The notes below the pieces were generated by a model that saw only the letters and a program-made list of their open reading frames with translations, made no database searches and was not told the origin of the DNA. From Myxococcales bacterium (GTDB taxonomy: Bacteria; Myxococcota_A; Polyangia; Palsa-1104), in contig PLXG01000363.1 of the NCBI GenBank assembly GCA_003153195.1, positions 1 to 32,637 of the forward strand: a stretch of 32,637 bases of DNA, given 5' to 3'. The translations under genes and the position numbers were made by a program. Position 1 is the stretch's first letter, and each line of letters begins with the position of its first letter. Positions 11,920 through 30,234 of the stretch are shown piece by piece.

Positions 11920-11956
11920 GCGATCGCACGAGCCCATTCGGCCGTTTTCGAAAGGC

Positions 11957-12274: not shown

Positions 12275-12292
12275 TTTCAATAGCTTTCGTAG

Positions 12293-12832
12293 TCAGGCGT
12301 ATTGCGGAAGAACTTCGGCGTCGGCCAGTAGCGGTGCGGTCTGATCTTTGGCAGACAAGATCGGATCTAGAACTGGCCAGTCGACGCCAATGGCGGGATC
12401 GTTGTAGCGGATGGCGCGGTCGTACTCGGCGATGTAAAGCTCTGAGCATTTGTAGACGAAATCGGCTTCGGTGATCGCGTAGAAGCCGTGTGCGAACCCG
12501 GCCGGAATCCACATCTTCAAGTGGTTCTCCTCGGACAAAATCGTACCGAACCATTTTCCAAAATGGGGTGAGCCACGTCGAATGTCGACCGCCACGTCGT
12601 AGACCGAGCCGCGCACGACCTGCACCAGCTTGCCCTGTCCGTTTGGCTCTTGAAAATGGAGACCGCGCAGCACGCCCTTCTTCGAGCGCGAGTAGTTGTC
12701 CTGCACGAAGCGAATGCCGGCCACATTGTGGGATACGCTATAGAGCTCGAGGAAGGTGCCTCGCTCGTCGGAAAATGACTTTCCCTCTACCAGCAGCACG
12801 CCCGGAAGTGGCGTATCGAGTACATTTATCAC
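12293..12832 (-). CDS. rmlC: dTDP-4-dehydrorhamnose 3,5-epimerase
   Basis: A 179-residue cupin enzyme, third in dTDP-L-rhamnose synthesis. FSDERGTFLE, the catalytic region RGLHFQ (H59), VDIRRGSPHFGKW, IPAGFAHGF (H115) and VYKCSELY are all RmlC hallmarks, and length is normal. It starts at a GTG 10 bases after the rmlA stop. It sits with rmlA, rmlD and rmlB, giving a complete pathway from glucose-1-phosphate. Confidence 0.95.
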   Translation of the reverse strand: MINVLDTPLPGVLLVEGKSFSDERGTFLELYSVSHNVAGIRFVQDNYSRSKKGVLRGLHFQEPNGQGKLVQVVRGSVYDVAVDIRRGSPHFGKWFGTILSEENHLKMWIPAGFAHGFYAITEADFVYKCSELYIAEYDRAIRYNDPAIGVDWPVLDPILSAKDQTAPLLADAEVLPQYA

Positions 12833-12842
12833 GGTCGACCGC

Positions 12843-13559: not shown

Positions 13560-14398
13560 CGGGCCTCCTCCTGCGCATACTCGGCTAGCGCCGTCTGCCA
13601 TTCGGGCATTACGTCGAGGCCGTGCATGGCGAGCATACTATGCTCGAACAGGCAATTGACCGGACGCGGCGCCGGCGCCGCCAACTCACGGGTCGAAACC
13701 TCTTCCCAGTTTGGCTTGGCACCCAAGATTTCGGCTAGGGCGCGCGCAAAGCCGGCCCAAGTTGTCTGACCTTTACAGCTCACGTGATAGAGCCCGCCAC
13801 CGCGCTGCCCCTCGAGCATGAGCTTTATGATTTGCCGCGCCGCCGAGCGTGCCCAGGTGGGCTGAACACGTCGTTCGACGTCGAGCTTGAGCGACTTTCC
13901 CTCAAGGATCAGCTGACGCAACCGCGACGAAAAGTTTTTTCCACCGCGCCCATAGAGTCCTTGCACGCGCACGATGTACCCACGATCCAGCCCTACGCGC
14001 GCGACCAACTCGTCGCCGGCCCACTTGCTCCGTGCATATTTACTCAGGGGATTCGGGCGAGCGAACTCGTCATATGGCTCATCCTGCGCGCCGTCGAAAA
14101 CGAAATCGGTGGAGAGGTGCACGAACGACTTGCCGAGCTTCTGGGCGGCCGCAGCGATATTTTCGGCCCCGAGTGCGTTCACGCGATAGGCATCTGCCTC
14201 GTCACGCTCGGCCTGATCGACGTTGGTGTAGGCGGCGCAGTTGACCAGCCAATCGCCCGCACCAGCCTGACTGAGCACCTGATCGAAGTTCCCCACGTCG
14301 CAGCCGCGGCGATCGAGCGCGATCACTTGATGGCCCACCAGTTCCTCGGCCAAATGGCGTCCGAGAAGTCCGCCCGCTCCGAAGATCACCACCTTCAT
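13556..14398 (-). CDS. rmlD: dTDP-4-dehydrorhamnose reductase
   Basis: A 280-residue SDR that performs the last reduction to dTDP-L-rhamnose. [11 protein letters not shown] is the NAD(P)-binding motif, [12 protein letters not shown] and LSTDFVFDG are family signatures, and YARSK contains the catalytic Tyr and Lys. The C-terminal half has the expected GLYHVSCKG segment. It overlaps rmlB upstream and rmlA downstream by 4 bases each, so translation is probably coupled. Confidence 0.94.
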
Positions 14399-15411
14399 TT
14401 TGGCGCGTCCTTACGTCCTCGATAATTTCGCTCGTACCAATCGCGGTATTCGCCGGAGCGAGCGCGTTTGCACCAGACGTCATTTTGGCGAAACCATTCG
14501 ATCGTTTCTGCAAGTCCGTTTTCGAAGCGATGTTGCGGCACGAAGCCGAGCTCGCGCTCGATCTTGGTGCAGTCGATGGCATAGCGTCGATCGTGGCCCA
14601 GACGGTCTTGTACGAACTGAATGAGCGACTCGGGCTTTTGGAGCAGCCGTAAGATCTCTTTCACGATCGAAATATTCGTTCGCTCGGCGCGGCCGCCGAT
14701 GTTGTAGACCTCGCCGCTTCGACCTTCCTGAAGAACTCTCTCGACAGCGGCGCAGTGATCTTTGACGTGAATCCAATCACGCACGTTCAAGCCGTCGCCA
14801 TACACCGGAAGTCGCTGTCCATCGAGCGCGTTCAGGATCATGAGCGGAATGAGTTTTTCGGGAAACTGAAACGGCCCATAGTTGTTCGAGCAGCGCGTGA
14901 TTACCATCGGGAAGCCATAGGTCTCGAAGTAGGCGCGCACCAGATGATCGGAGCCGGCCTTGGAGGCGGAATAGGGCGAGCGCGGGCGAATCGGGGTCTC
15001 TTCGGTGAACGCCGGCTCGTCAGGTCCCAAATCACCGTAGACCTCATCGGTGGAGACGTGAACGAACTTGAGTACGCCGTGCGCACGCGCGGCCTCGAGC
15101 AGCGTGGCGGTGCCGACCACGTTGGTCTGAATGAACTGCGCCGGACCGTGAATCGATCGATCGACGTGGCTCTCGGCGGCAAAGTGAACGATCCGATCGA
15201 TGGCATGCTCCGCCAGTACCCGGCCCAGCAGATCGCGATCGCAGATATCGCCTTTGACGAAGGTGAATCCGTCCACTCCGTCGAGGGAGCTGAGATTTCC
15301 CGCATAGGTGAGCGCGTCGAGCACCACCACTGGCTCGCTCGATTTTGGAGCCACGCGGCGGATGAAGTTCGAGCCGATGAACCCGGCGCCGCCGGTGACG
15401 AGCAGGCTCAT
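14395..15411 (-). CDS. rmlB: dTDP-glucose 4,6-dehydratase
   Basis: A 338-residue SDR, second enzyme of the dTDP-rhamnose pathway. It shows [42 protein letters not shown] and YSASKAGSD with catalytic Tyr and Lys, then [16 protein letters not shown]. These are all diagnostic of RmlB. Length is normal. Four-base ATGA overlaps link it to the polymerase/ligase gene before it and rmlD after it. Confidence 0.96.
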
Positions 15412-17690
15412 GGCCCCACTCCTGGTGGGCCACTCTGCTCTCGCTCGTGCGCCAAGAGTCTCGCACGCGCGCGCGCCAGCACCGCCTCTTCGGACTGTCC
15501 CTGACGTTCGGCGATCTGCGCCAGTAGCTCTTGCGTGGTCTGACGTTCGGCGAGCGAAAAACTCTTGGTGGCCGGTGAGGAGAGCGCTTGATGCGCACCG
15601 TCGAGGTTTCCCAAATCAATGCGAAACCGAGCCAGCTGAAGAATCAACGACGCATCCTCGGTGTGCTCGCGCAGCCCCTTGGTCAGCGCCTCTTCCGCCG
15701 GTTGCTTGAGACCGACACCTTGAAGCGCGGTCGCCGCCAGCCCATACGAATGCGCCGACGGATAGGACTCGAGCAATGCATCGGCGGATCGTTGTAGAAA
15801 TTCCGGCGAATGCGAATTTCCCGCCACGCGGAGTCGCTCGATCTGTGACGCCTCGCTGTCGTGCGCCAACTCCACCGCGCGACTGGTCATCTGCTCGGCC
15901 GGCTTGAGCTGCTTTTTGGCGATCAGATACTGCGCCGCGTCGAAGAGCTTGTCCGTCCTCTGTGGAATCGCGTCGATCATGCGGGCTCCGATCACGCCAA
16001 AGATCTCATCATAGCTGACCGGATCATTTCCCAGCTGCGCGGAATGAAATTCGAGCGCGGCCTGCGACGCATGTCCGGACTCTGCCAGCACCCTGGCCGC
16101 GAGATGGTGCGCCTGTCCGTTGGACGGATGGAGCCCAAGCGCACGGTTCAGGTGCTTCATCGCCTCGGGTGGATTTTTCGCCCGAAGATCTTGCTGCGCC
16201 GCCAACAGTTGGAAGTAGTCGTTGGCGGGATGTCGCGCGATCGCCTGACGCAACTCGTCTGAGACCGGTTCCATACGCTGAATCGCGGTGTGCAAGCGCT
16301 CGAATTCTGAATCTTGAAGGTGCGGCAGCTGCACTGCGGCGAGCACGACCGCCACCGCGAAACCCAGCAGGCTGAACATCGACGCCGCACGCGGAACGGG
16401 TGTACGCCGCAAGCGCTCTTCGTCCTCGGCGCGTGCCAGCACCACCGAAAACGCGACTACCGTCGGAATTGCCACACCCAGCATCTCCAGGCCGAAGTCG
16501 CCGAGCTCGTGTACCAGCACCGCAAAGACACCAGCGGCCGCGCCCAATGTTCCTGGCTCGAGCCGCGCGATGGAAAAAAGTCGTGGCCAAATTCCCGCCA
16601 GCACCATCGCGATCAGGAGAATGGAAATGGGTACGCCCCATTCGGACACCATCTGCACCAATATATTTTCCGGAAAAACCAAACGCACGCCCTCGTCGTC
16701 TCGGCGATGCGACGCGGCCGGCGATTCGAAGGCGCCACGACCAACGCCAGTGAGCAGATGATCCTTGGCGGTCTTGAGTCCGGCGATCCAGCCGCGCGTC
16801 TTTTGATTGTCGAGGATGGACTGGGACTGCACGCGATCGCGCAAACGATCGCCGACGGTCCACAAGACCGCCGACGTGCCGAGCACCAACAAGAGTGCCG
16901 CCGCCACGCCCGCAGCTGCACCGAACCGTCGCACCAGCAAGGTAGCGAGCAGCACGAAGCCGCCGGCGAGAAGCCCGACCACGCCCGAGCGCGAAGCGGT
17001 GAAGATGAGCGCGGTGATGCACACGATCGAGGCGATGGCATAGATCGCGCGCGTGCCTTCGCGAAACTCGATCGCCAGTCCGAGCGCGATCAGCGCTGAA
17101 AGCCCGAGCATCGACGCGGCGTGATTGCCGTTCACGAAGGTGCCAAAGAACCCGAGGCTCGGCGTGGAATGAAGATGATAGAGGCCGAAGATCTGCTGAA
17201 CCCCGAAGGTGCGCTCGACGAACGCGAGCGCCGCGACCACCACTCCAGCGCTGACAATGGCGCCGAGCAGAATATGAACGCGACGACTGGAGGCGGCGAT
17301 TCCGCGCGCGCTCAGAAGCAGTCCGAAGCAAGCAAATGCGCGCGCCAGCGCCAAGGCGGTCGCAGGAAAATCGAGGGTGAGCGGCATGAGCGTTGAGCCA
17401 CCCACCTCCCTTCTCAACTCATATGCTGCTGGCGAAAGCGCACGAACCAAAAATGCCGGAAGCGGAATGAGCTGAAACGCGGTGAACACCACCGCCGCCA
17501 GCGCTGCGAGCCCGATCCAGTCGAGCCTGACGCGGTGCCGCCGACGGACTTTGATGATGTAGAGCGCGGTGATGAGGAAGCTCACCGCAGCAAGAAAGAT
17601 TTGGACTGGAGGATTGGCGCCGCCGATCGCCAGCGGCGCGACGAAGGAAATGGCTGCGATCGCCCAGGTCAGCGCGCGCTCGAGACCCAC
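15408..17690 (-). CDS. O-antigen ligase/polymerase (Wzy_C-type) with C-terminal TPR region
   Basis: A 760-residue inner-membrane protein. The first ~450 residues have about a dozen hydrophobic segments with Wzy_C/WaaL-type landmarks: [10 protein letters not shown] (183-192), TASRSG (231-236), GVGRGAF (315-321) and [13 protein letters not shown] (340-352). Such proteins polymerise or ligate polyprenyl-linked glycans on the periplasmic face. Residues about 465-750 are soluble TPR-like helices ([20 protein letters not shown] and later pairs), probably periplasmic and protein-binding. It starts at a GTG just 3 bases after the OPX stop and overlaps rmlB by 4 bases. Polymerase and ligase cannot be told apart by sequence; the context favours an exopolysaccharide polymerase. 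Confidence 0.85.
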
Positions 17691-17693: not shown

Positions 17694-18281
17694 TTAAAAC
17701 AGGCGCTCGGGAACCGCCAGAATGTCGCCTGGATGCAGGTAGACATTTTTTGCTTTCCCGGAGCCGATGTCCTCGACCGGAACTTTGGTAGTGGTCTTCT
17801 TGCCGCTCTCAATGCGCGTGAGCGTGGTGTCGTTGCGCGCCGCGATCGGGGTGAAGCCGCCCGCTTGGGTGATCGCTTCGACCGCGGTCATATCTGGGCT
17901 GTAAGTGTAGGTCCCCGGCTTTTGCACCTGTCCGAGGATGAAAATCTTTTTCGAGATCTGATCGCGCACCAGAACGGTCACCTGGGGATTGCGCAGAATT
18001 CCGTCGGCGAGCCGCTCGGCAATCTTCTTCGCGACCGCCTGCGGCTCGAGCCCGACCACGGTGATGGTGCCCGCCAGCGGGAAATTTATCGAACCTTCGC
18101 CGGCGACTTTGTAGGTGCCTGATAGATCGTTTTCGCCGAAGACGCGCACGTCGAAGGTATCGCCGACGCCCAGCGTCGTGTCGGACACCGGCGTGTCCTT
18201 CTGCTCGACGGTAAGCTCCTTCTGATGCGCACAGCTGGCGCAAAGTGAAAGAAGAAGCGCTATGGAGATCGGTCGAAGCAT
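17694..18281 (-). CDS. Polysaccharide export (OPX/Wza-family) lipoprotein, short form
   Basis: A 195-residue lipoprotein: signal MLRPISIALLLSLCASC with C17 as likely lipidated cysteine (the -3 Cys makes the lipobox unusual). A Poly_export domain follows (GVGDTFDVRVFGENDLSGTY, then INFPLAGTITVVG) to about residue 107, then one SLBB-type domain (FILGQVQKPGTYTYSP, ITQAGGFT) ending at HPGDILAVPERLF. Wza has extra domains and a C-terminal helix that forms the outer-membrane pore; this protein stops short and has none. The gene just upstream encodes a beta-barrel that could supply the pore. The ATG at 18281 was chosen because it begins the signal peptide; the barrel stop is 7 bases upstream. Confidence 0.9.
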   Translation of the reverse strand: MLRPISIALLLSLCASCAHQKELTVEQKDTPVSDTTLGVGDTFDVRVFGENDLSGTYKVAGEGSINFPLAGTITVVGLEPQAVAKKIAERLADGILRNPQVTVLVRDQISKKIFILGQVQKPGTYTYSPDMTAVEAITQAGGFTPIAARNDTTLTRIESGKKTTTKVPVEDIGSGKAKNVYLHPGDILAVPERLF

Positions 18282-18288: not shown

Positions 18289-19614
18289 TTAGTACAGGAT
18301 CGCCAACCGAATGAAGACTTCGTTCTTGGTGTAATCGAGCGGCACCAGCCCCTTGGTTCCCAAGTCGATCGAGCTGTCCGAGTTGTTCCACGAGAGGGTG
18401 TATCCAACGCTGGCGATCAGCCAATCTTTGAATGGATAGTCGACGCGTAGATCGAACACGATGGTGTTGTCGGTTCGCGTCGTCGTATTGAGCCCTTGCG
18501 CCTGTTGAATTCCTTGAAACCGGTTGTTCGAGTAGCTCAGGCGAGTGGTCCCGGTGAAACGCCAGAGGAGCTGCGTCCAGCCGATGTAGACCATGTCGAA
18601 ATCGTAGTACGAGCCGACCAGTGAGTTCGCAAAGTCGTGCTTATATCCAATGCTCCCGCTCGACAAAATCGTTGGGCTCCACTTGACCTCGATGCCTCCG
18701 ATGGGCGTGTTGGGGCTCGGGTCGGGAAGATTTTTGGTAGGATTCTGCGGGTCAGGAACGGGTTGGTAGAATCCATTTCCGTAGCCGATCCAAAGATTGA
18801 ACGCGAGCTTGGTGGTGAGCAGTCCGTTGAGTCCAGCGACGGCGCGCAGCGGATAGGAGTCGGGATGCCGCAGCATCACGTCGCCTTTGTTCCAGTAGTT
18901 GGTCGGCTGCTCGCTGAGCGTCAAGTAGAGCGCGGTCTTGGGCAGGAACTTCCAAGACGCAGTGAAATCGATCTTGTGATAAAAAAGATCGAAGTCTTGG
19001 AACTGGGCCTCTTCGAAATAGTTCAGACCAAAGACGTAGGTCAGAAGTAGCTCGAGACGTCCGCCACCCGGCCGAAAACCAAAACGTGTTCCAACCTCGT
19101 TCTTGTCTTGATCGAGGTTGGTTGGGATAGTCGAGCACACCATCGTCGTACCGGTGCCGCCAGTCGGTGCGCACGCGCTGTAAGGCGGTTGCGACATGCG
19201 TACGTAGTTGTCGAACAGATCGACCGAAAAGAGCTGGCCAGGAAACAGGCTAAGCATCAGACCCGACTGGACGCTGAAGGTACGATGCTGAGAGATGTTC
19301 TGGTCGGAATTGAGCCACTCGTTGTATTCGAGGCCGGCGTGCAGACGAAACTCGACGGCGGGTTTCGTCGCGCCTGCGCGCTGCGGAGGACGTGTGGCGA
19401 GATCCAGAGTGGGGAGCAAGCGGAACGCGAACGCGCCGATGGCGTTTCCATCCGCGGCATAGAAGATGTTGGAGTCATACCGAAACTCCGTGCCGATTCC
19501 TGGATGGAGGACCAGGCGATCGCCGAGCCGGATTCCCGGACCTTCAGCAAAGGCCGTCACACCCCAGAGCATCAAGCCAACGTTAAGCAGCCACCCGAAT
19601 CGCCGAAGCACCAT
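18289..19614 (-). CDS. Outer-membrane beta-barrel protein of the polysaccharide export operon
   Basis: A 441-residue protein with signal peptide (cleavage near VTAFA/EGPG) and many alternating amphipathic strands rich in Tyr, Trp and Phe, for example FRYDSNIFYAADG, LHAGLEYNEWL and TRLSYSNNRFQG. It ends IRLAILY, a C-terminal aromatic residue as needed for Bam-dependent assembly. Strand count looks like 16-18 by eye. In Myxococcus, barrels of this kind (called Wzp) partner short OPX proteins to form the outer-membrane exit for secreted polysaccharide; position directly before the short OPX gene fits that. GAAGGG precedes the ATG. Confidence 0.8.
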   Translation of the reverse strand: MVLRRFGWLLNVGLMLWGVTAFAEGPGIRLGDRLVLHPGIGTEFRYDSNIFYAADGNAIGAFAFRLLPTLDLATRPPQRAGATKPAVEFRLHAGLEYNEWLNSDQNISQHRTFSVQSGLMLSLFPGQLFSVDLFDNYVRMSQPPYSACAPTGGTGTTMVCSTIPTNLDQDKNEVGTRFGFRPGGGRLELLLTYVFGLNYFEEAQFQDFDLFYHKIDFTASWKFLPKTALYLTLSEQPTNYWNKGDVMLRHPDSYPLRAVAGLNGLLTTKLAFNLWIGYGNGFYQPVPDPQNPTKNLPDPSPNTPIGGIEVKWSPTILSSGSIGYKHDFANSLVGSYYDFDMVYIGWTQLLWRFTGTTRLSYSNNRFQGIQQAQGLNTTTRTDNTIVFDLRVDYPFKDWLIASVGYTLSWNNSDSSIDLGTKGLVPLDYTKNEVFIRLAILY

Positions 19615-19679: not shown

Positions 19680-20237
19680 CTAGATAAACGGAGATGCCTC
19701 CTGCGGTCTAGTCACGTCCGGGACCGGAGTTGGGATTGCGGTCGGGTCTGTTGTTGGAACGCTCGGATCAATCTCGACGTCGACGACGGTTGCACCGACG
19801 TAGCTCACGTCTTCCCCGATGCAATTTTCCGACTCGGTACCGAGCACCAATACCTTCTGGTACAGAATCGTGATGCGCGTGTACTCGTGCTGTCGGGCGG
19901 CGTCGTCCGCGCGTGAGATTGCGGTGTTCAGGTCCTTCATCGAGATGTCCGTCACCGATTGAAGACCTTTGAGCTGCTGAAGCTTGTCGCTCACGCAGTT
20001 CAGCTTGACGATGTCTCTCTTCTTCCGCGCCTGATCCATGAGAACGTTCACGCGCGACTCGGTCTCGGTCATTCGCAGCTGATATTTATTGGCTTGAACG
20101 AGCGTTTCTTGCGGGCTGAGGTTCACTGTCTTGCGAAAATCGACCTCGGCGTCCTTATTGCGGTCTTTTCCTTGCGCTAACGCGACGGTTCCTAAGAGGA
20201 AAGCCCCCGTCCCCAAAATCCAATTGCGCGCAGTCAT
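19680..20237 (-). CDS. Secreted helical protein of unknown function, first gene of the export operon
   Basis: A 185-residue protein with a signal peptide (MTARNWILGTGAFLLGTVALAQG). The mature part is mostly helical (about 38-130) with two cysteines, C81 and C139, which may form a disulfide, and ends in a Thr/Pro-rich tail (PTTDPTAIPTPVPDV). No family recognised. It is the first gene behind the strongest promoter of the export operon, 65 bases before the barrel gene, so a periplasmic role in polysaccharide export or assembly is likely but unproven. The start at 20237 has GGGGTG 4 bases upstream and begins the signal peptide; the frame extends further but without one. Confidence 0.78.
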   Translation of the reverse strand: MTARNWILGTGAFLLGTVALAQGKDRNKDAEVDFRKTVNLSPQETLVQANKYQLRMTETESRVNVLMDQARKKRDIVKLNCVSDKLQQLKGLQSVTDISMKDLNTAISRADDAARQHEYTRITILYQKVLVLGTESENCIGEDVSYVGATVVDVEIDPSVPTTDPTAIPTPVPDVTRPQEASPFI

Positions 20238-20261: not shown

Positions 20262-20290
20262 ATTATCGCCGTCACCCCCATTTGTGTCAA
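20262..20290 (-). promoter_or_regulatory. Strong sigma70-type promoter of the export/rhamnose operon
   Basis: On the minus strand TTGACA (20285-20290) is followed after exactly 17 bases by GATAAT (20262-20267). The start of transcription would be near 20255, giving a leader of about 18 bases before the ATG at 20237, with GGGGTG as ribosome site. One promoter may serve the whole set down to the ArsC-like gene. Confidence 0.72.
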
Positions 20291-20619: not shown

Positions 20620-22023
20620 TTACTTCGAGGCTTGGAAGATGAAGGGGTAGGAGAACTGCACTTCGCCCCCCGACGGCGCCGGGAACCGCCACGACATGAC
20701 GCGCGACTTGATGCACGACGCGACCTCATCGTCGTGCATGGTGTCGTTTTCGATCTCGGCCGCGGTTACCTTACCGACGGTCGACACCGTGAATCGCAGA
20801 ACCAGCTTGCCGCCGATGCTCGGATTGCGCTTCAGGCCGGCCTCATAGCAAGCCGTGACTGCGCGAATACGGCCGCGAATTTCTTTGACGATGACGCTTG
20901 GATCGAGCGATCCATCGACGTCGGTCGGCGCCGAATCTTTGACCGTCGCGCGCACCGCGTGCTCGCTCGCCTTTTCGCCAGTTCCGACCGCGCCAGGGCC
21001 CGACGCAACCAGTGAGCCGCCGCCGCGAAGGGTACCGCTGCCGCCGCCCTTGGTGCGAAGTCCGCCCGCGCCGCCGCCCGCGCCGGCAACACCGACACCA
21101 CCGACTTGCGAGAAGACACTATCTGCGTTCGAGGAGACGCCGCCGCCTTTGAGAAGATCGGCGATTGCCCCACCTTCACCATCGGCGCTCTTGGCACCGA
21201 GAATGTTGAGCACGCCCATCTTTTGAACGTCGGCCGCGAGTCGGGCGCGACGCTCGGCTGCAGCGCGCGCTTCCGCCTCGACATCCTTCGGAGTCTTCGG
21301 TGCCGCCGCCGGAGCCGCTGCCACCTTCTTTTCCGTATCTACTGCCTTCTTCTTATCGTCTTTCTTTTTCTCGTCCTTCTTGGCGTTCGCGTCGTCTTTT
21401 ACTTCTTCTTTTTTCTTCTCTTCTTTTTTCGGCACGATCATGTGCACGAAGCTGTCGGGAATCTCTTCGATGTCCGGCTTACGCGAGAAATCGAGCGTTC
21501 GCAGGTACATGATCATTCCGAAGTGAATCACGAACGAGCACGAGATCACCGCCACAAGCATCCAGTCCATATCCTGGAGCATCGACGAGCGGACCGACGC
21601 GGGAAGTTGCGGACGCGGCTGCACCGGCGGGGGCGAAACGAACTGAAACAGCACGGTGACGTCGCCGATGATCACCTTACCGCGCGACCGATCGTTCAGC
21701 ATCACGCGCCAGGTATCGCCGCGCTTCTCCGCACCCGACTGACGAAGCGCCGGCAGCGCCGCCACTTGATCGCCGAGCGAAAGACGTCCGTCCATCGTCT
21801 CGGTGAACTGGAGTGCGTAGCCTTCGGGGGTCAGCTCGAAAAGCAGAAAGGATCGCGACAGCGTGTTCGACGCCGGCACCACGAACGTATTCTTGGCGGA
21901 CTGTCCGATGGTGACGTTGGCGCGCTTTCGCACCAGCCGCTCCTCGACAATCTTGCCGCCTTGAATGATCCCGATGCGTAGAATCTTCGGCGCATCACCC
22001 GCTATAATCTTCGCCTGGGCCAT
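20620..22023 (-). CDS. FHA domain - TM - TonB-like (AgmX/PglI C-terminal) protein, GltG/PglI-like
   Basis: A 467-residue inner-membrane protein. Residues about 15-130 look like an FHA-type cytoplasmic domain; 155-173 form one TM helix. Residues 199-234 are an extreme Lys/Glu/Asp linker, 307-350 a Gly-rich linker, and 376-467 a TonB-like periplasmic domain with C392 (ACYEAGLKRNP) and C437 (VASCIKS), ending in WRFPAPSGG and FSYPFIF. This C-terminal type is known from myxobacterial AgmX and PglI, the latter being GltG of the Myxococcus gliding machine, where it spans the periplasm and responds to a proton-driven motor. It is last in the operon; AGGAG lies 10 bases before the ATG. Confidence 0.87.
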   Translation of the reverse strand: MAQAKIIAGDAPKILRIGIIQGGKIVEERLVRKRANVTIGQSAKNTFVVPASNTLSRSFLLFELTPEGYALQFTETMDGRLSLGDQVAALPALRQSGAEKRGDTWRVMLNDRSRGKVIIGDVTVLFQFVSPPPVQPRPQLPASVRSSMLQDMDWMLVAVISCSFVIHFGMIMYLRTLDFSRKPDIEEIPDSFVHMIVPKKEEKKKEEVKDDANAKKDEKKKDDKKKAVDTEKKVAAAPAAAPKTPKDVEAEARAAAERRARLAADVQKMGVLNILGAKSADGEGGAIADLLKGGGVSSNADSVFSQVGGVGVAGAGGGAGGLRTKGGGSGTLRGGGSLVASGPGAVGTGEKASEHAVRATVKDSAPTDVDGSLDPSVIVKEIRGRIRAVTACYEAGLKRNPSIGGKLVLRFTVSTVGKVTAAEIENDTMHDDEVASCIKSRVMSWRFPAPSGGEVQFSYPFIFQASK

Positions 22024-22089
22024 CTACAGACTCTCCTAGAGACTAGAGCGCAATTTCCGAGCGTCCCTATTTGAACACGTTTTTAAATC

Positions 22090-22110
22090 GATCGCTACTC
22101 CGAAGCGATC
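22090..22110. other. Hairpin in the gap before the FHA gene
   Basis: A 7-bp perfect stem, gatcgct (22090-22096) and agcgatc (22104-22110), with a 7-base loop. It lies in the 111-base gap between the 93-residue gene and the FHA gene, the only sizeable gap in the downstream part of this operon. On the transcribed strand it is followed by gatttaaaaa, not a T-run, so it is more likely an RNA-processing or partial attenuation structure than a full terminator. Confidence 0.35.
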
Positions 22111-22114
22111 TTTT

Positions 22115-22144
22115 CCGAATCAGAACGGTCCGAATCAGAACGGA
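22115..22144. repeat. Two-copy 15-bp tandem duplication over a stop codon
   Basis: ccgaatcagaacggt (22115-22129) is followed directly by ccgaatcagaacgga (22130-22144). The TGA stop of the 93-residue gene lies in the second copy on the plus-strand numbering; the other copy is just downstream of it. Confidence 0.85.
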
Positions 22145-22416
22145 CTGTGCGACGCCGCTTCGATGATCTTCGGCAAAAAATCTTGTTTTAGAGATTCCCA
22201 ATCGTAGTCCATGCTCGAACGCTGAAGGACGTAGAACGCGTTTGGCTTTTGGATCTTTCCCTCGACAACGATGCCCTCGGTGATGCGGAAGATCTTCTGT
22301 CCTGAGGACGAGCGTTCGACCTTCACTTTGGGCGACTGCGCCTGTTGCGCCGCAGCAGATACGGTCAGCAGGGAGGCGACCGCAAATACCGCGCTCGTTA
22401 GCAGAATTTTTTTCAT
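22135..22416 (-). CDS. Small secreted protein, GltF-position
   Basis: A 93-residue protein with a clear signal peptide (MKKILLTSAVFAVASLLTVSAAAQ). The mature ~70 residues have a beta-rich core (KIFRITEGIVVEGKIQKPNAFYVLQ) and a short helical end (DWESLKQDFLPKIIEAA). No characterised family is recognised from sequence alone. It overlaps the TPR gene before it by 4 bases and precedes the FHA-TonB gene, which is the position of gltF in the Myxococcus cluster as I remember it. Role probably periplasmic within the same complex. Confidence 0.8.
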   Translation of the reverse strand: MKKILLTSAVFAVASLLTVSAAAQQAQSPKVKVERSSSGQKIFRITEGIVVEGKIQKPNAFYVLQRSSMDYDWESLKQDFLPKIIEAASHSPF

Positions 22417-23381
22417 TTCTTTTGCTCCGCCGGTGCAGCTGGAGGCGCGGCGGCGGCTTTGGCTGCGTCGGCGGCGGCTTTGGCTGCGTTGCGTTCCTGC
22501 TGCTTCTTGAGGCGCTCGACCTTCTTTTGCTCGCGATCGATCGCCTTTTTGGCCTCTTCGATATAGAGATCAGCCGGATCGTCTTTGGTCAGCTTCGCCC
22601 CAGCCAATTGCTTATAGCGATTTAGATAATTGATCGCGAAGTTCTCTTTGGCGATGAGATCGATCCCGGGATATTCCTTCGCATCGAGATACAAAATGCC
22701 GAGGTTGAAGTAGGCATCGGACGAGCTCTTGTCGCGATCGAGCGCTTTTTTGAAGGCCGCATCCGCGTCCTTATAGCGAAGCTTGCCGCGATAGGCCGCG
22801 CCGAGGTTCATGTACGCGGTGGCAGAATTGGGCTCGAGCTTGACCGCTTTTTCCGCTGCTTCGATCGCGCCGTCATAGTTCTTCGACTGGAGATACTGCG
22901 CGGAGAGATTCAACCAAGCGGGTCCGAAATCTTCTTTGACCTCGGTCGCCTTTTTGAACGCCGCCGTCGCGGAGATGCGATCATCGCGAGTCAGTGCGAT
23001 GAAGCCGATAAGATTGTAAATCTCGCCGTTGTTCGGATCGATCGCCTTGGCCATCTCCGCGATCGAAGTGGAGAGCTCGTATTTCTTGAGATGAAAATAC
23101 GAGTTGGCCATGACCACCAGCGCCGGCACGTAACGTTCGTCGCGTCCGAGCGCCAGCTTCGATTGCCGAATCGCTTCTTCGTAACGTCCCTTCTTATAGA
23201 GATCCCTGGCGGCCGCCGTATCCGGCGCCGGATCCGAGCCCTTGGTCTCCTTGGGAACTTCGATCTTCTTGGCAAACGCGGGCGATCCGACGCCGATTAC
23301 CGCCGTCACGACGCCGCAGAGCCCGGCGATCAGGGCGCGTTTCCACTGTCGACTGTTGACTGTTGACTGTCGACTCATCAT
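22413..23381 (-). CDS. Secreted TPR protein, AglT/GltE-like
   Basis: A 322-residue periplasmic protein. Signal peptide to about residue 37 (SPAFA/KK), then about five TPR units from 57 to 230 (for example DLYKKGRYEEAIRQSKLALG, YMNLGAAYRGKLRYKDADAAF, YFNLGILYLDAKEY). The end (262-322) is a Lys/Glu/Ala coiled segment finishing in a low-complexity Ala/Pro tail; the DNA there has a 21-bp tandem repeat. The first codons encode the odd n-region SRQSTVNSRQW, created by a 7-bp DNA repeat. Start: ATGATG at 23381/23378; the upstream stop lies between them, so overlap is 4 or 1 bases. Order and type match gltE (aglT). Confidence 0.85.
   Translation of the reverse strand: MMSRQSTVNSRQWKRALIAGLCGVVTAVIGVGSPAFAKKIEVPKETKGSDPAPDTAAARDLYKKGRYEEAIRQSKLALGRDERYVPALVVMANSYFHLKKYELSTSIAEMAKAIDPNNGEIYNLIGFIALTRDDRISATAAFKKATEVKEDFGPAWLNLSAQYLQSKNYDGAIEAAEKAVKLEPNSATAYMNLGAAYRGKLRYKDADAAFKKALDRDKSSSDAYFNLGILYLDAKEYPGIDLIAKENFAINYLNRYKQLAGAKLTKDDPADLYIEEAKKAIDREQKKVERLKKQQERNAAKAAADAAKAAAAPPAAPAEQKK
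23345..23375. repeat. 7-bp tandem repeat at the start of the TPR gene
   Basis: Four and a half copies of act-g-t-(t/c)-g: actgtcg, actgttg, actgttg, actgtcg, act. The repeat lies inside the first codons of the 322-residue TPR gene, right after its ATGs, and encodes QSTVNSRQ. Confidence 0.85.
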
Positions 23382-26300
23382 GGCTGCTCCATGCCGACGC
23401 GCTCGTCCTTCACCAGCGGAAAGACGTCCGGCTTATAGGCGTTAGCTCGATCGCGCGCACGCTTCGTCCACTCGTTCGAGACGCCGAGCTCGCCGGCTTT
23501 CTGCAATGTGACCGTATAACGTTTCACTGCCTCTTCATCTACGCCCGAGACCATCTGTTCGATCTGTTGCCGGTAAACATCGCAGCCTTCGTCGCCGAAC
23601 TTCTTCTTTACGTCGGGCGGACAGGGCGCGGCGAGTAGCGCTTTAGAAAACATTTCATAGACATAGCCGGTTCGAAAGTAGGCGGCCAGCGTCCAGCTAA
23701 CCCGTCTGTAGGCGAGCACCTTATTGTACTCGGCGATCAACTCCTCGACGTTTTTCTTGAATGATAGGACCGATGCCGAAAGCTGCTTTCCCGATCCTTT
23801 GATCTGGGACTTCTCGACGATCGGAAGCCTCTCCTCGGTGAGGATGTAGGCCGCGTGCGCAGCATACTCGGCAGCGTCCGAGGCCGGCGGTGCACTGGCG
23901 CCGAGCGCGACGATCTTGTGATAGGTATCGAGCGCGCCTTTGTGATTCTTCTGCGTCTCTTGCGCCCTGGCGATGTCGAAGTAGGCCTCGAGCACGCGGC
24001 CCTTGCCCTTCTCGTCCGATCCGTAGACGTGAATGTATTCGTTCATCGCCTTGATGGTCTGATCGGGCTGCTTCATCTTTTCGTACAACTTGGCGACCCG
24101 GAAGAAGGATTCCGACTGATCCTCGCGCTTGACCGATTTGTCGGCTGAATAGCGACGGAACAGGTCGACCGCCTTTCCGTAGTTCTGATTGCTCTCCTCG
24201 AGCACCGCGGCGTTGTAGATCGAGTCGGTGCGGTGAGTGGAGTTGGCGAACCGTTTGTCCTCGGCGAGGCGCAGGTAGCTGGCCACCGCGCTGTCGAACT
24301 CGAACGCTTTCTTGTAGCTCTCTGCCGTTTGGAAGAGCGCGTCGTCGACGTATTTCGAGTTCGGGTAGTCAGTGACGATGCGTTCGTACAATTTGGTGGC
24401 AGCGGCGAAACGATTCACCCTGCCGTAGCAAACAGCGGCGTTGTTGAGCGCATTGTCGGAGTCGTCGCCTTTTGGATTTTCATCGACGAGGTTGATGTAC
24501 ATGACCGCAGCCTCTTCGTACTTCTTGTCCTCGAAGAGTTTGTCGGCCTTTTTGAACCGAGTAGAGCGCACCAGCTTGGTGGCTTCATCGGCGTTCTTGG
24601 CGGCCACCTCACCCGAACCGCAGGCGGCCTGCTTGAGCCGAAGACCCCACTCCTCAATCTTGTCGAGGTTCTTCTCGATGATGTAGGTGGCCAAGATCGC
24701 CTGACCGGCGTTGGCGCCAATGTTGTCCGCGTTTTTGCAGTACTTGGTAACCACCTCTTCCATGCGCTTGCGCGCTTCGTCCCAGTGCAAGTAGCGCAAT
24801 GGAATTTCCGCCGCTTTGTAAGTGATGGTCCCTACGCGGCCGGAGGTGGGCACGTGTTCGACGAATGAATCGTACGCCTTTTGCATGGCCAGTACGGTTT
24901 CGGGAATTTCCATCGGCTGGACCGGCACCGTGACTTTGCCGTCGGCCGGGATGGGCGGCATGGCGAACTTGCCCGCCTTTTCTTGAAGCTCGAGAAATTT
25001 TTCATACGCCTTGATGGCGTTAAACGAGGCGTCTTCGGCGTACTTGTTGTCGAGCTGCGAGTCGCGAACTTTTTCGTACTGCTTGGCGGCTTCGATGTAA
25101 TGGGCCGAGTAGTAGAGGGTGTCGGCATAACTGTACTGATACTCATAGGTGTTCTTGGAGTGCGGGTAGGCCTCGAGATATTTCTCGTAGGCGATCGACG
25201 CGAGCGTGTACTCTTTTAGAATCTTCTCGGCCTGCTCAGGCGTCGGCCTCCCGCCTGCGAGTTTCTTCAACTCCTGCGCCGTCTTGTGGTGGTTGACCGC
25301 GGCGGTGACCAGCGCGCTCTCCGCCAGCTCGGAGGCACTGTCGAGCGCCTCTTTATTGTCGCGATTCTTTTTGTACCACTCGGTGCCCTTGGTGTAGGTG
25401 GCCACCATCACGTCGCGCTCTTGGTTGGCCTTCTGGAAGTCGCGCATACGCTCATAGCAGAGCACCACGCGATCCTGCAGCTTGGGATTGTCCGGATGGA
25501 ACGGCCAACGCTGCAGCGCATCTTTATAGACGTCGATCGCCTTTTGGAACTCGGTCTCGTCGAAGTAGATGTCGCCGAGCTTAGCGAAGATCTCGCGCAC
25601 GTGCGGTTCGCTCTCACGGCCTTGGTAAAATTTCTTGGCGCGCTCGAGCCCGGTTTCAGGATCGTCCATCCCGTCGCCGTTCCAATCCTTCTCGGCGAAG
25701 CTGATGCCGAGGTACTGCACCGCTTCCGTTCGCAGATCCGATCCTTCGCCGCCAGTCTCGGCCTTCTTCTTGTCGGAGTAGACCACCAGCTCGTCGAATC
25801 GTTTGACCGACTCGGGGTAGTTGTCGGCGCGGTAGAACGACCAGGCTAGCTTGTAGAGCGCTTTGTCGAAGTAAGCCGAGTCTTTGAACTGGAGCACGCG
25901 CTGGTAAGCGGCGATGGCGAGCTCGAGCTCGGAGTTGTCGAAGTGGAACTCACCGACACGGGTCCACGCTTCGGGCAAAAAGCGCGACTCGGTCTTCACC
26001 GGTACGCAGTCTTTATAAGGATCGACTTCGATGAATCCGCCACGACCTTTGGAGGGCTGAGGCGGCGCCGGCGGATCGAGCGCATTGTACTTGTTCGAGC
26101 AAACCAGCGAGCGGAACGCCTGCAGCGACTCGCCTTCTTGGTTCATTTCGCCGAGGCACCAGCCGAGCAGGTAGTAGGCGCCATCGACCAGTCGATAGTT
26201 GGGAAAGCGCGCGATCAGCTGCTTGTAGACGTCGATGGTCTTTTGATAGTCGGGCGTGGCCGAGCCGCCGGCAGCGGTGGCCGACAGATACTCGTCGTTC

Positions 26301-26734
26301 GACTTTTCGAAATAGAGCTCGGCCAGACGGAACATCACGTCCGGCGTCCAGCGAGCGTCGTTGGCGTAGCGCGCGAGAAAATCTTCGAACAGCGCGATGG
26401 CGGACACGCGACGCGACTTCTCTTCTTTTTCTTCCAGATCGAGCTGGCCCTGATACTTGCCCATGAGCTCGCGGCGTTTCTCCGCGTACTCGCTCTGCAC
26501 GATGTGGGTGATGGTGCCCCGGTAGTCTTTGCTGGCCTCTTCGAAGCGCCCGATTTCGTTTTGCAACGACTCGAGCTCACGCGCCTCATCGGCGGTCGCT
26601 TGAAGCGGCGTGGGCCCGCCGGTCGCTCCCGGTCCAGCCTGCGCGCCACTCGAGAGTGTGAGACAGAGCCCCGCCGCGACGAGTCCTCGCCACCGACGCC
26701 CGCCGATGTCCGACTGCCAACCGCGCCGCATCAC
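23378..26734 (-). CDS. Large secreted TPR protein, AgmU/GltD-like
   Basis: An 1118-residue protein with signal peptide (cleavage near GAQA/GPG, residue 33), a charged helical stretch to ~110, then TPR-type helical pairs almost to the end (FEDFLARYANDARWTPDVMFRLAELYF, YKQLIARFPNYRLVDGAYYLLG, YERIVTDYPNSKYVDDALFQTA and many others). At 350-358 the loop DWNGDGMDD has the form of a calcium-binding DxNxDGxxD turn. Several Cys pairs (C193/C212, C243) may be disulfides in the periplasm. Length, signal and order recall Myxococcus AgmU (GltD), a TPR protein of gliding motility. It overlaps both neighbours by 4 bases. Confidence 0.87.
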   Translation of the reverse strand: MMRRGWQSDIGGRRWRGLVAAGLCLTLSSGAQAGPGATGGPTPLQATADEARELESLQNEIGRFEEASKDYRGTITHIVQSEYAEKRRELMGKYQGQLDLEEKEEKSRRVSAIALFEDFLARYANDARWTPDVMFRLAELYFEKSNDEYLSATAAGGSATPDYQKTIDVYKQLIARFPNYRLVDGAYYLLGWCLGEMNQEGESLQAFRSLVCSNKYNALDPPAPPQPSKGRGGFIEVDPYKDCVPVKTESRFLPEAWTRVGEFHFDNSELELAIAAYQRVLQFKDSAYFDKALYKLAWSFYRADNYPESVKRFDELVVYSDKKKAETGGEGSDLRTEAVQYLGISFAEKDWNGDGMDDPETGLERAKKFYQGRESEPHVREIFAKLGDIYFDETEFQKAIDVYKDALQRWPFHPDNPKLQDRVVLCYERMRDFQKANQERDVMVATYTKGTEWYKKNRDNKEALDSASELAESALVTAAVNHHKTAQELKKLAGGRPTPEQAEKILKEYTLASIAYEKYLEAYPHSKNTYEYQYSYADTLYYSAHYIEAAKQYEKVRDSQLDNKYAEDASFNAIKAYEKFLELQEKAGKFAMPPIPADGKVTVPVQPMEIPETVLAMQKAYDSFVEHVPTSGRVGTITYKAAEIPLRYLHWDEARKRMEEVVTKYCKNADNIGANAGQAILATYIIEKNLDKIEEWGLRLKQAACGSGEVAAKNADEATKLVRSTRFKKADKLFEDKKYEEAAVMYINLVDENPKGDDSDNALNNAAVCYGRVNRFAAATKLYERIVTDYPNSKYVDDALFQTAESYKKAFEFDSAVASYLRLAEDKRFANSTHRTDSIYNAAVLEESNQNYGKAVDLFRRYSADKSVKREDQSESFFRVAKLYEKMKQPDQTIKAMNEYIHVYGSDEKGKGRVLEAYFDIARAQETQKNHKGALDTYHKIVALGASAPPASDAAEYAAHAAYILTEERLPIVEKSQIKGSGKQLSASVLSFKKNVEELIAEYNKVLAYRRVSWTLAAYFRTGYVYEMFSKALLAAPCPPDVKKKFGDEGCDVYRQQIEQMVSGVDEEAVKRYTVTLQKAGELGVSNEWTKRARDRANAYKPDVFPLVKDERVGMEQP

Positions 26735-29022
26735 TGCTGCTCCTTCAAGACGTCTTTGAATTCATCGTCGATGAGCTTGAGCTCGCGCTTGCGCTCGTTT
26801 AGGAGCTTGTTCGATCCTTGGGTCGACGAATCTTTCAGCGCCCAGGCCACGTCGATGATGCCGACGTCCGAGCGAACCACGATGTTGTAGAACCGCTGCG
26901 CCACCTCGCGGAAGCTATCGGCAATTACGTCGCCACCGACGTCGGACGACTCGTCCGAGTAGCCGTTCAGCTGTTGACGATAGGCGAGAACATGCGCCTT
27001 TTCGTCGGCGAGCTCGCTTTGAATGTCCTTGAGACGCAGATCGAGAATGTCATCGATGCGCGCGTTGAACGCCGCGATCTTCTGATCGACGCCGCGCGAC
27101 CGCTCGAGGATCGATTCGATCTGCTCGGCCTTGGTGCGTTCGGTGGGCTGAAGGCGCGAACGCACCTCCAAGCTCACTGCGTGAAGACGCTTGAGCAGAT
27201 CGTCGTATTGCGCTTTTGCCTGTGCGGCTTCCCTGGCGTCGGTGTCATCGATGAGTACGGCGTTGTCCTGCAGATCGCGGCGAAGGTCTTCCAGTTGCTT
27301 CTGCCACTCGTCGATCTGCGCCATCCAATCGTCGAGCTCTTTTTGGGCGAGCAGACGCTGTGCGTCGGGAAGCTTCTTCTCGAGCTCGTCGTGATAGAGC
27401 TTCACCACCGCCTGGGCACCCAGCCTGGTGCTGGCCAGCTCGGCCTGCGACTCGGTGGCCTCTTTGTCAAAGTCGTTCAAGGCCGTTCGCGTCTTCTTTT
27501 GGTGCTCAGCAACTCCCTCGGTGGCCCCGGGCATCGTCGACATCTTGGTCTCGAGCGCCTCACGCTGCGCCTGGAGATCGGTGAGCATCGCTTTTTCATT
27601 TCCCGCTACCGGCGCGATGAGCTGCGATTCGCGCGCCACCAGTTTCTTCTTTACCTCAGTGATCTGATTGGAAAGGTCGAGGGCGTTCGCGCGCATGTGC
27701 GCGAGCTCGGGGAAGACGTTGACGCGGGCCGGGCCGTTGAGCGTCTTTTCCAGGCGCTTCACGATCTCCTCCGATTCGGTGAGCGAATGGTTGAGATCAC
27801 CGACGTCGTGCACCAGTCCGGTAATGCGCTTGACCTCCGCTTCGTCCTTCATGAACCTGTTCACCGATGCGGGCAGAATCGCCGCGGTGTCGAACCGGTT
27901 CATGTTCTTGGCGATCAGATCGCGAAAATGATTTTTAGCGTCGCCGAGCTTGGCCAGCTCCGCTTCCAGCTGCTTGCGAATCGGCTGATACTCTTCACGG
28001 GTTCGGGAGAACATATCGGTGGCCGGACCGTACTCTTGCTGTCGGATGAACAGCTTTCCCACCAAGAGTTTCACTTCGGGCGCGAGCGACGAGTCGGGGG
28101 CATTGAGCATGAGCAGGTCGAGCGCGCGGCGCGCCTTCAGATACTCTTTGCCTCGAATGCTGACCCACGCACTCTCGTAGAGCGCGTCGTTGAACAGATC
28201 GCTCTTCGACGAGAGCTTGGAATATTCATTGAGCGCGTTGGTGAGTTGATCGCGATCGAGATAGATGCGGGCCAGCGCCATGTGCGTCAGCTCGACGATG
28301 CGCTTTTGCGCGTCGTTCTTGGCGTCGGTCTTGAGCACGTTTCCGTAGGTCGCGATCGCTTCAGCGAGGTGCGCGCCGCCTATCGCCACTTGCGCCGCGC
28401 CGACGAAATACTGCGATTGGAAATAGTATTCGTTGGTGGGACCGATCGCTTGTAGCGCCGCCAGCGACTTGTCGTACTGCTTGCGGAAGAAATAATATTT
28501 TCCCTTCACATAAGGGACGCTCGGCAACAGTCGATCGATCGGCAGACCTTCCAGCTTGGTGATGTAGCCATCGACCGGGCCGTAGTCGCCGGTATGAAGC
28601 GACAGCTCGATGAGTCGCTGAAGCGATTCTTGATAGCGACGATTCGACGTTCCCATCTCGACGATCTTCTCGAAGTAGCGTCGCGAGGATAGATAGTCGC
28701 GCTGCAGGTAGAGCGAGTCGGCCAAATAGTAGAGGCCCTCGGGATAGGCCGAAGAGCCGGGATATTTGTCGACCAGATCGAACAGAATGATCGAAGCGGC
28801 TTCGTAGTTCTTGAGCTCGTAGAGCACCTGCGCGTCGATCAGGCGGCGCTCCGCGATCTCTGGGCCGGGCTCTGCGGGCGGTTTGAGCTGATAATCGAGG
28901 TCGTGAACTCGCGCATCGAGCTCCACCACCTTGCCGCCCAACGTATCGACTTCGTCGGCACGCGCCGCAGAATCGATTCCCGCGATGCACGCCAACACCA
29001 GCGCGAGATGGGTTCGTCTCAT
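26731..29022 (-). CDS. Secreted TPR and coiled-coil protein
   Basis: A 763-residue periplasmic protein. Signal peptide ends near DSAARA/DEV (residue 22), followed by a short coiled coil, then TPR-like pairs from about 60 to 355 (LYELKNYEAASIILFDLVDKYP, EGLYYLADSLYLQRDYLSSRRYF). Residues about 380-680 are long heptad-type helices (QMAQIDEWQKQLEDLRRDLQ-like), and the last 60 residues end in charged helix. No enzyme motif is visible. It starts 3 bases after the stop of the Ala/Pro-rich gene and overlaps the 1118-residue gene by 4 bases, so the three are surely cotranscribed. Probably a scaffold of the same envelope complex; specific function unknown. Confidence 0.85.
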   Translation of the reverse strand: MRRTHLALVLACIAGIDSAARADEVDTLGGKVVELDARVHDLDYQLKPPAEPGPEIAERRLIDAQVLYELKNYEAASIILFDLVDKYPGSSAYPEGLYYLADSLYLQRDYLSSRRYFEKIVEMGTSNRRYQESLQRLIELSLHTGDYGPVDGYITKLEGLPIDRLLPSVPYVKGKYYFFRKQYDKSLAALQAIGPTNEYYFQSQYFVGAAQVAIGGAHLAEAIATYGNVLKTDAKNDAQKRIVELTHMALARIYLDRDQLTNALNEYSKLSSKSDLFNDALYESAWVSIRGKEYLKARRALDLLMLNAPDSSLAPEVKLLVGKLFIRQQEYGPATDMFSRTREEYQPIRKQLEAELAKLGDAKNHFRDLIAKNMNRFDTAAILPASVNRFMKDEAEVKRITGLVHDVGDLNHSLTESEEIVKRLEKTLNGPARVNVFPELAHMRANALDLSNQITEVKKKLVARESQLIAPVAGNEKAMLTDLQAQREALETKMSTMPGATEGVAEHQKKTRTALNDFDKEATESQAELASTRLGAQAVVKLYHDELEKKLPDAQRLLAQKELDDWMAQIDEWQKQLEDLRRDLQDNAVLIDDTDAREAAQAKAQYDDLLKRLHAVSLEVRSRLQPTERTKAEQIESILERSRGVDQKIAAFNARIDDILDLRLKDIQSELADEKAHVLAYRQQLNGYSDESSDVGGDVIADSFREVAQRFYNIVVRSDVGIIDVAWALKDSSTQGSNKLLNERKRELKLIDDEFKDVLKEQQ

Positions 29023-29025
29023 AGT

Positions 29026-29952
29026 CTACTTCTTTGCCGGTTGCTGCTGAGGCACCACCGCTTCTTTGTCGGCCAAAACCGTCTCGCGGAAATCGACCGC
29101 TGGGCGATCTTTCGGGTCGGTGGTGACCGGGTTGCCCTTCTCGTAGCCGACCACCTTGACCGTGAGCTGCTTGCCCTCGGTGGCGGTGAAAGTATGGCTC
29201 GACTTGGCGATGAACTTGTAGCCCTTCAGGTACTGAAACACGCCGTAGGCGTTGCCCTGATAATACATTTGCACCGACAAGGTGTGATTGCCGGGAACGA
29301 TCGATCCGTTGAAGATCTCGATCTCCTTTTGGCTGCCGAGCTTGCCCGAATCGTCCGAGCGCGCAAAAATTTCCGCGCCGTCGAGTGCGTACACGTAGCG
29401 GACCGGCAAATAGAGCGAGCCCATCTCGTTACGATGCACGATGATCGCACGTGCGCCGGCGATGACACCGTGAAGAACGGTTTCCTTGAGCAAGTTGAGA
29501 CGCGCCTTCGAACGGAAGATCTGCTCTTTGAGCTCGTTCACGCGACGTTCGAGATCTTTCAATTTGATTCCGTAGGATGCGCCGCCGGTGGTGCTGGCGG
29601 ACGCGACCTGCGTGGCCGTCGGAGCCGGAGCCGCCGCCGCTGGTGCGGCCGCCGCCGGTGCTGGAGCTGCCGCCGGTGGTGCCGCAGCCGGAGCTGGTGC
29701 CGCAGCAGCAGCCGGAGTCGGAGTTCCGGTCAGTACCGGCGCGGTCGACGCCGCTGGAGCTGGCGCCGCGGGCGGAACCTGCGCAGCCGCAGGAGCCGCG
29801 GATGGATTCGCTGCCGCCGCCGCTTGGGCCGGTGTGTTTTTTGAATCGGCTGGCGCACCTCGCGCAACTCCCGCAAATGAGACTGTTCCAAGGAACAAGA
29901 ATGAAATCAGCCTCAACCCCAACCTCGATCGAATGTGCATGCGCAAGGGCAT
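29026..29952 (-). CDS. Secreted Ala/Pro-rich protein with coiled coil and beta domain
   Basis: A 308-residue protein: signal peptide to about residue 32, an Ala/Pro low-complexity stretch from about 38 to 125, a short coiled coil (IKLKDLERRVNELKEQIF) and a C-terminal beta-rich domain (LPVRYVYALDGAEIFAR, GNHTLSVQMYYQGNAYGVF). The linker could let the domain reach across the periplasm or cell wall. Names such as dihydrolipoamide acetyltransferase, sometimes given to such proteins because of the linker, do not fit: no lipoyl or catalytic domain is present. It is the first gene of the operon. Start: ATG 29952 (GGAG only 2 bases away) or ATG 29940 (GGAG 14 bases away); both keep the signal peptide. 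Confidence 0.8.
   Translation of the reverse strand: MPLRMHIRSRLGLRLISFLFLGTVSFAGVARGAPADSKNTPAQAAAAANPSAAPAAAQVPPAAPAPAASTAPVLTGTPTPAAAAAPAPAAAPPAAAPAPAAAAPAAAAPAPTATQVASASTTGGASYGIKLKDLERRVNELKEQIFRSKARLNLLKETVLHGVIAGARAIIVHRNEMGSLYLPVRYVYALDGAEIFARSDDSGKLGSQKEIEIFNGSIVPGNHTLSVQMYYQGNAYGVFQYLKGYKFIAKSSHTFTATEGKQLTVKVVGYEKGNPVTTDPKDRPAVDFRETVLADKEAVVPQQQPAKK
29577..29830 (-). repeat. Low-complexity Ala/Pro-coding tract
   Basis: Imperfect repeats of gccgccgctgg/gccggagctgg-type words encode the AAPAPAAA linker of the Ala/Pro-rich protein. Such tracts change length easily and are prone to assembly error. Confidence 0.8.
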
Positions 29953-29990: not shown

Positions 29991-30019
29991 TTTATATCAT
30001 CCAACCTTATATGGGTCAA
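29991..30019 (-). promoter_or_regulatory. Strong sigma70-type promoter of the TPR/FHA operon
   Basis: On the minus strand TTGACC (30014-30019) and TATAAA (29991-29996) are separated by exactly 17 bases. Transcription would start near 29984, leaving a leader of about 32-44 bases. Just upstream is ggggacaagttgcccc (30030-30045), a short dyad with 4-bp arms that could be an operator; its role is unproven. Confidence 0.7.
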
Positions 30020-30073: not shown

Positions 30074-30234
30074 AAAGCGCACTTCACTTGCCTTGACCTT
30101 CGCCACGCCGGCTGCGGGCCTCGTCCGCTTCGTTGCTCCTCCCTTAAATATCTACGGATATTCTCGGTCGTCGCGCCTCGCGGCCGAGACTCCTCGCTCG
30201 GCGTGGCTCGATCAATTCAAGTGAAGTGCGCTTT
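30074..30234. repeat. 161-bp palindromic element with 17-bp perfect inverted arms
   Basis: The left arm aaagcgcacttcacttg (30074-30090) is the exact reverse complement of 30218-30234. Inside, gccacgccg (30102-30110) pairs with 30199-30207, symmetrically placed 11 and 10 bases from the outer arms. At the centre aatatc-tacg-gatatt (30147-30162) makes a perfect hairpin. The right arm runs into the obgE stop codon. No coding capacity and no clear target duplication were found, so it is either a MITE/REP-type element or a large RNA structure ending the obgE transcript. Confidence 0.75.

Follow-up and report, generated by a model that had tools for sequence, protein, structure and literature searches.

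Genes and signals at the locus

The window, by which we mean the whole stretch of 32,637 nucleotides that was analysed, corresponds to contig C39 in a Myxococcales draft genome of 5.56 Mb (511 contigs, rated 71.7% complete), and its homologues in named records belong to Myxococcota. An ORF check confirmed six collinear ORFs at 20620-29952, all on the minus strand, whose positions, lengths and order match the six collinear envelope genes described in an earlier note on this DNA. In the order of the operon, the features are:

29991-30019, minus strand: promoter-like TTGACC-17-TATAAA ahead of P1 (10/12)
29026-29952, minus strand: P1, 308 aa, with a signal peptide, an Ala/Pro-rich linker, a long helix and a beta-sandwich domain
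26731-29022, minus strand: GltC-like periplasmic TPR/coiled-coil protein, 763 aa (NF033756)
23378-26734, minus strand: GltD-like large periplasmic TPR protein of the G4 type, 1118 aa (TPRs by Pfam; type by tree)
22413-23381, minus strand: GltE-like TPR protein, 322 aa (NF033758)
22135-22416, minus strand: GltF/CglF-like small secreted protein, 93 aa (NF033764)
20620-22023, minus strand: GltG-like protein, 467 aa, with a degenerate FHA-like domain, one TM helix and a periplasmic TonB-like tail

From first to last, the junctions are a 3-nt gap, three 4-nt overlaps and a 111-nt gap, so the overlaps to which most junctions had been attributed are found at three of the five. Of the one strong promoter previously proposed, what stands is the promoter-like site before P1, a consensus match only; it was spotted by reading, as the scan rule demands a T at the end of the second hexamer and consequently does not list it. 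No RNA family was found in the window with Rfam. The gap between obgE and P1 is occupied by a 23-nt inverted repeat (30074-30234; arms 91% complementary and 115 nt apart), the core of which has two exact copies in the window and appears in other loci only at the same place. Additionally, a 12-nt direct repeat (TCCGAATCAGAA, spacing 15) lies at 22114-22140, at the extreme end of the gltF-like gene and before the 111-nt gap.

That these genes are real is indicated by their conservation: relatives throughout the class have the same order, as do Myxococcus, Nannocystis, Enhygromyxa, Sorangium and Minicystis. The upstream neighbours are rplU-rpmA-obgE in the window and its class, and mglBA in Myxococcus.

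Profile searches against Glt proteins named GltC, GltE, CglF and GltG for genes 2, 4, 5 and 6, respectively. The best NCBIfam match of gene 2 is NF033756 (GltC, 1.9e-16), and its product is 30% identical to the GltC of the Myxococcus G4 cluster over 732 aa. Gene 4 matches NF033758 (GltE, 2.8e-26) and gene 5, which has the same position in relatives, matches NF033764 (CglF, 0.0012), CglF being GltF (PMC4488436). Gene 3 is GltD by its TPRs, size, order and homology (36% identity to Myxococcus G4 GltD and 27% to true GltD), TPRs being clear in both the 1118-aa and the 322-aa proteins (Pfam). Homologues of GltD, GltE, GltF and GltG had been claimed in that order, and these results agree, by NCBIfam for the last three and by TPRs and homology for GltD. 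By contrast, the view of the two leading genes as extra subunits holds for P1, which is outside the described gliding set, but not for the 763-aa gene, which is GltC.

Gene 6 matches NF033760 (GltG, 1.4e-48) across profile positions 204-648 only, and it carries an AgmX/PglI TonB-like tail (NF033768, 9.4e-30, above cut-off). The FHA-TM-TonB architecture assigned to it before is therefore right for the tail and only in part for FHA. No FHA model of Pfam or NCBIfam matches the protein, and, in alignment, its N-terminal domain lacks the phosphothreonine-binding signature (GQ/GH instead of GR, and no SxxH). Nevertheless, the nearest structural neighbours of the AlphaFold model of residues 1-139 (pLDDT 82.8) include FHA and FHA-like domains, none of them with E <= 1e-3.

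An envelope-spanning machine is a reasonable reading of the operon. In two relatives, GltC-GltD-GltE is a single ORF (L069, 7705-13923, and L071, 8168-14041), and in a third GltD-GltE is (L064, 1719-5852); such fusions argue for physical contact between these proteins.

Relationship to the gliding machine and to the G4 cluster

The identity previously given to the operon was that of the gliding core. According to this explanation, a basal gltD-E-F-G machine would drive focal-adhesion gliding in this lineage, and in its favour the families and their order are those of M. xanthus G1, and the genome has MglA (contig C160) and, as a search for aglRQS genes elsewhere in the assembly revealed, an AglRQS-like motor triplet on contig C131. 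However, the scores of the window proteins are far below the cut-offs of the curated gliding equivalogs in NCBIfam: 60 bits against 450 for GltC, 92 against 225 for GltE, 19 against 90 for CglF (GltF) and 166 against 650 for GltG. These values resemble those of the Myxococcus G4 proteins with the gliding models (84, 117, 32 and 150 bits for GltC, GltE, GltF and GltG), whereas in Myxococcus and Hyalangium the true Glt proteins are above the cut-offs (741, 142 and 1083 bits for GltE, GltF and GltG). In a maximum-likelihood tree of 80 GltD proteins, built by a quick method with SH-aLRT support only and with some long branches, a 100% branch has the window clade and the mglA-linked G4-type GltD on one side and true Glt, Nfs and G5 on the other, along with two more groups of paralogues; Nfs and G5 are labels given, on the basis of scores and by elimination, to the Myxococcus clusters that remained.

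Gene content points the same way. The window cluster shares with M. xanthus gliding Glt (G1/G2) the homologues of GltC, D, E, F and G and the D-E-F-G order, but the operon has no GltA, GltB or GltH-K, its GltC is adjacent, P1 is extra, the GltG is shorter and lacks the canonical FHA region found at the N-terminus of true GltG, and exporter genes are attached. In fact, P7, a Wzp-like barrel and OPX are found downstream, not gltH, gltI and gltJ. A better gliding candidate exists in the same genome: a second GltD, on contig C408, falls on the Glt/Nfs side of the tree and adjoins a GltC with 306 bits on the GltC model, the contig ending right after GltD. Moreover, a polar mutant of M. xanthus G4 glides (PMC3169522). 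The gliding reading, rejected on the GltD tree, the equivalog scores and the gene order, is thus highly improbable: the operon is not the gliding (G1/G2) motor but a sister machine found across Myxococcota, and sequence comparison makes it very probably a gliding-machine paralogue of the G4 type. In this incomplete genome, 23 sites have the C-terminal domain that GltG and GltJ share. In Geomonas Red32 (L140), no GltD match was found at 1e-8.

MglA was used as a query to reach named genomes. Directly after mglA, Myxococcus, Archangium and Hyalangium have P1-GltC-GltD-GltE-GltF-GltG, and in L211, P7, a Wzp-like barrel and OPX come next in the Myxococcus block. All nine window genes match this block in the same order (P1 with 56% identity, OPX with 45% and the others with 29-39%). 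The L211 block comes from a record titled "Comamonas sp. KCTC 72670"; the section of that record in L103 (BNCN01000011.1) is from a Myxococcus genome (MglA 99% identical), and the record is probably mislabelled.

In M. xanthus, mglA is MXAN_1925, with masABK on its other side, and the G4 GltD is MXAN_1922; the correspondence with MXAN_1924-1915 was assigned by position and literature, the genomes compared being other Myxococcus (L102, L103/L211). The polar mutant of this paralogue, named G4 by Luciano et al., has normal motility (PMC3169522). A literature search found no experiment on G4 proteins beyond one motility test, and no mention of P1 in the text on M. xanthus G4 that it covered.

The window cluster and the M. 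xanthus G4 cluster, which ends in wzpB/wzaB, are therefore alike in their nine genes, in the order of these and in the side of the GltD tree, and they differ upstream, where the window has rplU-rpmA-obgE and Myxococcus mglBA. The mglA of this genome is on contig C160, and the clusters of Nannocystis, Enhygromyxa and Sorangium likewise do not lie behind mglA in the loci compared. We consequently treat mglBA as a lineage-specific neighbour that does not define the G4 type.

The neighbouring exporter and the P1 subunit

Downstream of the operon and on the same strand, the window has the following features:

20262-20290, minus strand: promoter-like TTGACA-17-GATAAT ahead of the exporter genes (found by the scan, 11/12; consensus match only)
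19680-20237, minus strand: P7, a small secreted protein with no Pfam match
18289-19614, minus strand: Wzp-like outer-membrane beta-barrel (PF10082 BBP2_2, 0.00097, below cut-off)
17694-18281, minus strand: OPX (Wza-type), short form with Poly_export and SLBB only (PF02563, 7e-21; PF10531, 2.2e-11)
15408-17690, minus strand: O-antigen ligase/polymerase (Wzy_C) with TPRs (PF04932, 5.3e-14)

Having their own promoter-like site, the exporter genes may form a separate transcript. In Myxococcus (L211), the homologue of the Wzp-like barrel also adjoins the OPX gene, and in several relatives the Wzy_C/TPR gene comes after the OPX gene. With the Wzy_C/TPR gene, sugar-nucleotide epimerases, a GT4-type transferase and dTDP-rhamnose-like genes make up a polysaccharide locus beside the operon (5555-17690).

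Among the loci with at least 7.5 kb of sequence downstream of GltD, a Wzp-like barrel or OPX gene follows on the same strand in 15 of the 20 of G4 type and in none of the 16 of other Glt types; the remaining five G4-type loci have no recognisable Wzp or OPX there, and P7 comes after GltG in 13 of the 20. Gene order thus shows a conserved block that links Wzp and a class 3-like OPX to the G4-type Glt cluster. In M. xanthus, MXAN_1915 and MXAN_1916 are WzaB and WzpB of BPS export (PMC9603273, PMC7310880); the former has been called "orphan-like" (PMC7310880), and wzaB is about 1 Mb from the remaining BPS genes. Like these class 3 OPX/Wzp exporters, the window has a short OPX gene that adjoins the gene of a predicted outer-membrane beta-barrel, directly after P7; what differs is that the window pair belongs to a conserved block that also encodes a Glt-like machine.

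The Nfs spore-coat machine is also a paralogous complex and has a functional link to a polysaccharide (Exo) and to the exporter of that polymer. However, neither P1 nor Wzp/OPX genes were detected beside nfs-like loci (L213, L216), the GltD branch is a separate one, and Pfam reveals no OmpA-like pair (NfsA/B-type barrels) among the six window genes.

P1 has no Pfam match, and NCBIfam families match it only via a low-complexity stretch. The AlphaFold model of its domain (pLDDT 81.9) consists of a helix and an eight-strand beta-sandwich, with no PDB match at E <= 1e-3. When the domain alone was the query, it was present in 54 of 58 relatives, and P1 occurs in 141 of 190 sampled Myxococcota genomes. 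It precedes GltC/GltD in 50/50 G4-type loci, a count that is partly circular, as some of these were fetched by P1 (the first 20, L061-L080, were fetched by GltD), and in 6 of 29 other Glt-type loci. P1 is a subunit that has not been described before and that the known gliding set lacks. A possible equivalence of P1 with the "additional gene" that Luciano et al. mentioned for the non-deltaproteobacterial core was also considered; that gene is said to be without a homologue in Myxococcales.

The idea that every Glt/Nfs machine includes P1 as a subunit was rejected, since P1 is missing from true Glt, Nfs, G5 and para3, and only a distant P1 is found in para2. The latter group (L082, L083, L084, L086, L094, L095, L100 and L223) forms its own 100% GltD clade, and the very distant P1 is present in several of its loci. 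In some genomes, P1 occurs as two tandem copies (L067, 4065-5680; also G127:C38 and G198:C4).

A candidate motor and its proposed load

The window contains no MotA or ExbD, and MotA-ExbD-ExbD triplets are found elsewhere in the genome, on C131, C141 and C6. In Nannocystis, Enhygromyxa and ten other loci, including those where a contig end leaves only its start, such a triplet lies inside the operon, downstream of GltE/GltF. Comparison was made with two Myxococcus candidate triplets, one of which (245, 162 and 194 aa, with a later start for the last) fits AglR, AglQ and AglS, the other being taken as M2 by elimination. In all three subunits, the motors inside the operon have more identity to M2-type than to AglRQS proteins (47% v 38% identity for MotA, 36 v 27 for ExbD1 and 31 v 24 for ExbD2), and by identity the C141 triplet groups with M2 and the C131 triplet with AglRQS. 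In trees, the in-operon motors join M2 with moderate support (60/90 and 84/93), the alternative not being rejected by the AU test (p 0.13). Taken alone, the pairing of the G4-type machine with an M2-type motor seems rather likely. The M2 mutant glides normally (PMC3169522). On C141 (L045), the triplet is flanked by the genes of a class A penicillin-binding protein and of an 819-aa protein with no Pfam match (2745-5201 and 7376-9835).

As a whole, the best explanation, to which we give a probability of about 60%, is that P1-GltC-GltD-GltE-GltF-GltG form a G4-type, Glt/Nfs-like trans-envelope complex that would work on the polymer exported next door. By analogy, what the operon moves or deploys is probably a sugar polymer at the surface, not the cell. 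GltG would cross the inner membrane and draw force from a pmf-driven motor of the MotA-ExbD-ExbD kind; here, the M2-type triplet on C141 is the likeliest such motor. GltC, GltD and GltE, the TPR proteins of the periplasm, would together with GltF and P1 pass this force across that compartment, and the load would be the polysaccharide exiting via the neighbouring Wzp/OPX exporter, whose equivalent in Myxococcus would be the biosurfactant polysaccharide BPS. The analogy is with Agl-Nfs, which transports the Exo polymer across the surface of the spore and is dispensable for its export (PMC3858216). Since an exporter lies beside the G4 cluster, this precedent makes a like action on an exported polymer the best reading, and polymer handling appears to be the most likely mechanism. 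In its full form, the proposal would be that M. xanthus G4 (MXAN_1922) and M2 (MXAN_3004) are one machine, of an M2-powered, P1-containing third class of Glt/Nfs motors present in most Myxococcota and dedicated to moving or deploying the WzpB/WzaB polymer; this claim, and the pairing with M2 as a part of it, we regard as tentative and somewhat doubtful.

Two other roles have to be weighed against polymer handling. The complex could be a general, Tol-Pal-like force transducer for envelope integrity or the positioning of outer-membrane proteins, next to the exporter for historical rather than functional reasons; the TPR similarity of GltC and GltD to YbgF/BamD-like families (NCBIfam), the presence of P1 in most Myxococcota and the fact that neighbours do change, as they do upstream between the window's class and Myxococcus, are all consistent with this. 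It is unlikely, however, as the downstream link to the exporter is kept across distant families while the upstream neighbour varies, is absent from 16/16 control clusters, and the paralogue Nfs works on a polysaccharide (PMC3858216). The same linkage (15/20 vs 0/16), as well as the motors inside the operon in some lineages, would also suit a spatial adaptor whose pmf-driven motor serves to position or gate the Wzp/OPX translocon and does not move the polymer itself. Agl-Nfs, the closest characterised paralogue, nevertheless acts on its polymer once this has been exported, and the export step does not require it (PMC3858216), and we consider such an adaptor quite improbable.

G4 and M2 have been listed as function-unknown paralogues since 2011, and gene order in Myxococcota ties them together with wzaB and adds a conserved subunit without a described family. 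P1, the Wzp/OPX linkage and the M2-like motor inside the operon in several lineages are new here. If the link to the polymer is true, motor-driven handling of surface polysaccharides would be a widespread and possibly older role of this machine family, and gliding one specialisation of it.

The seven-gene core complex of Luciano et al. 2011 (GltC, D, E, G and AglRQS) has the same core proteins as the window operon and, as in some relatives of the latter, includes its motor; in this genome, by contrast, the motor is elsewhere, and GltF and P1 are added. A third Glt-like cluster, on C6 (L044, 6339-18000, minus strand), includes a MotA-ExbD-ExbD motor of its own as well as an outer-membrane barrel (TIGR04565), and resembles a stand-alone core complex.
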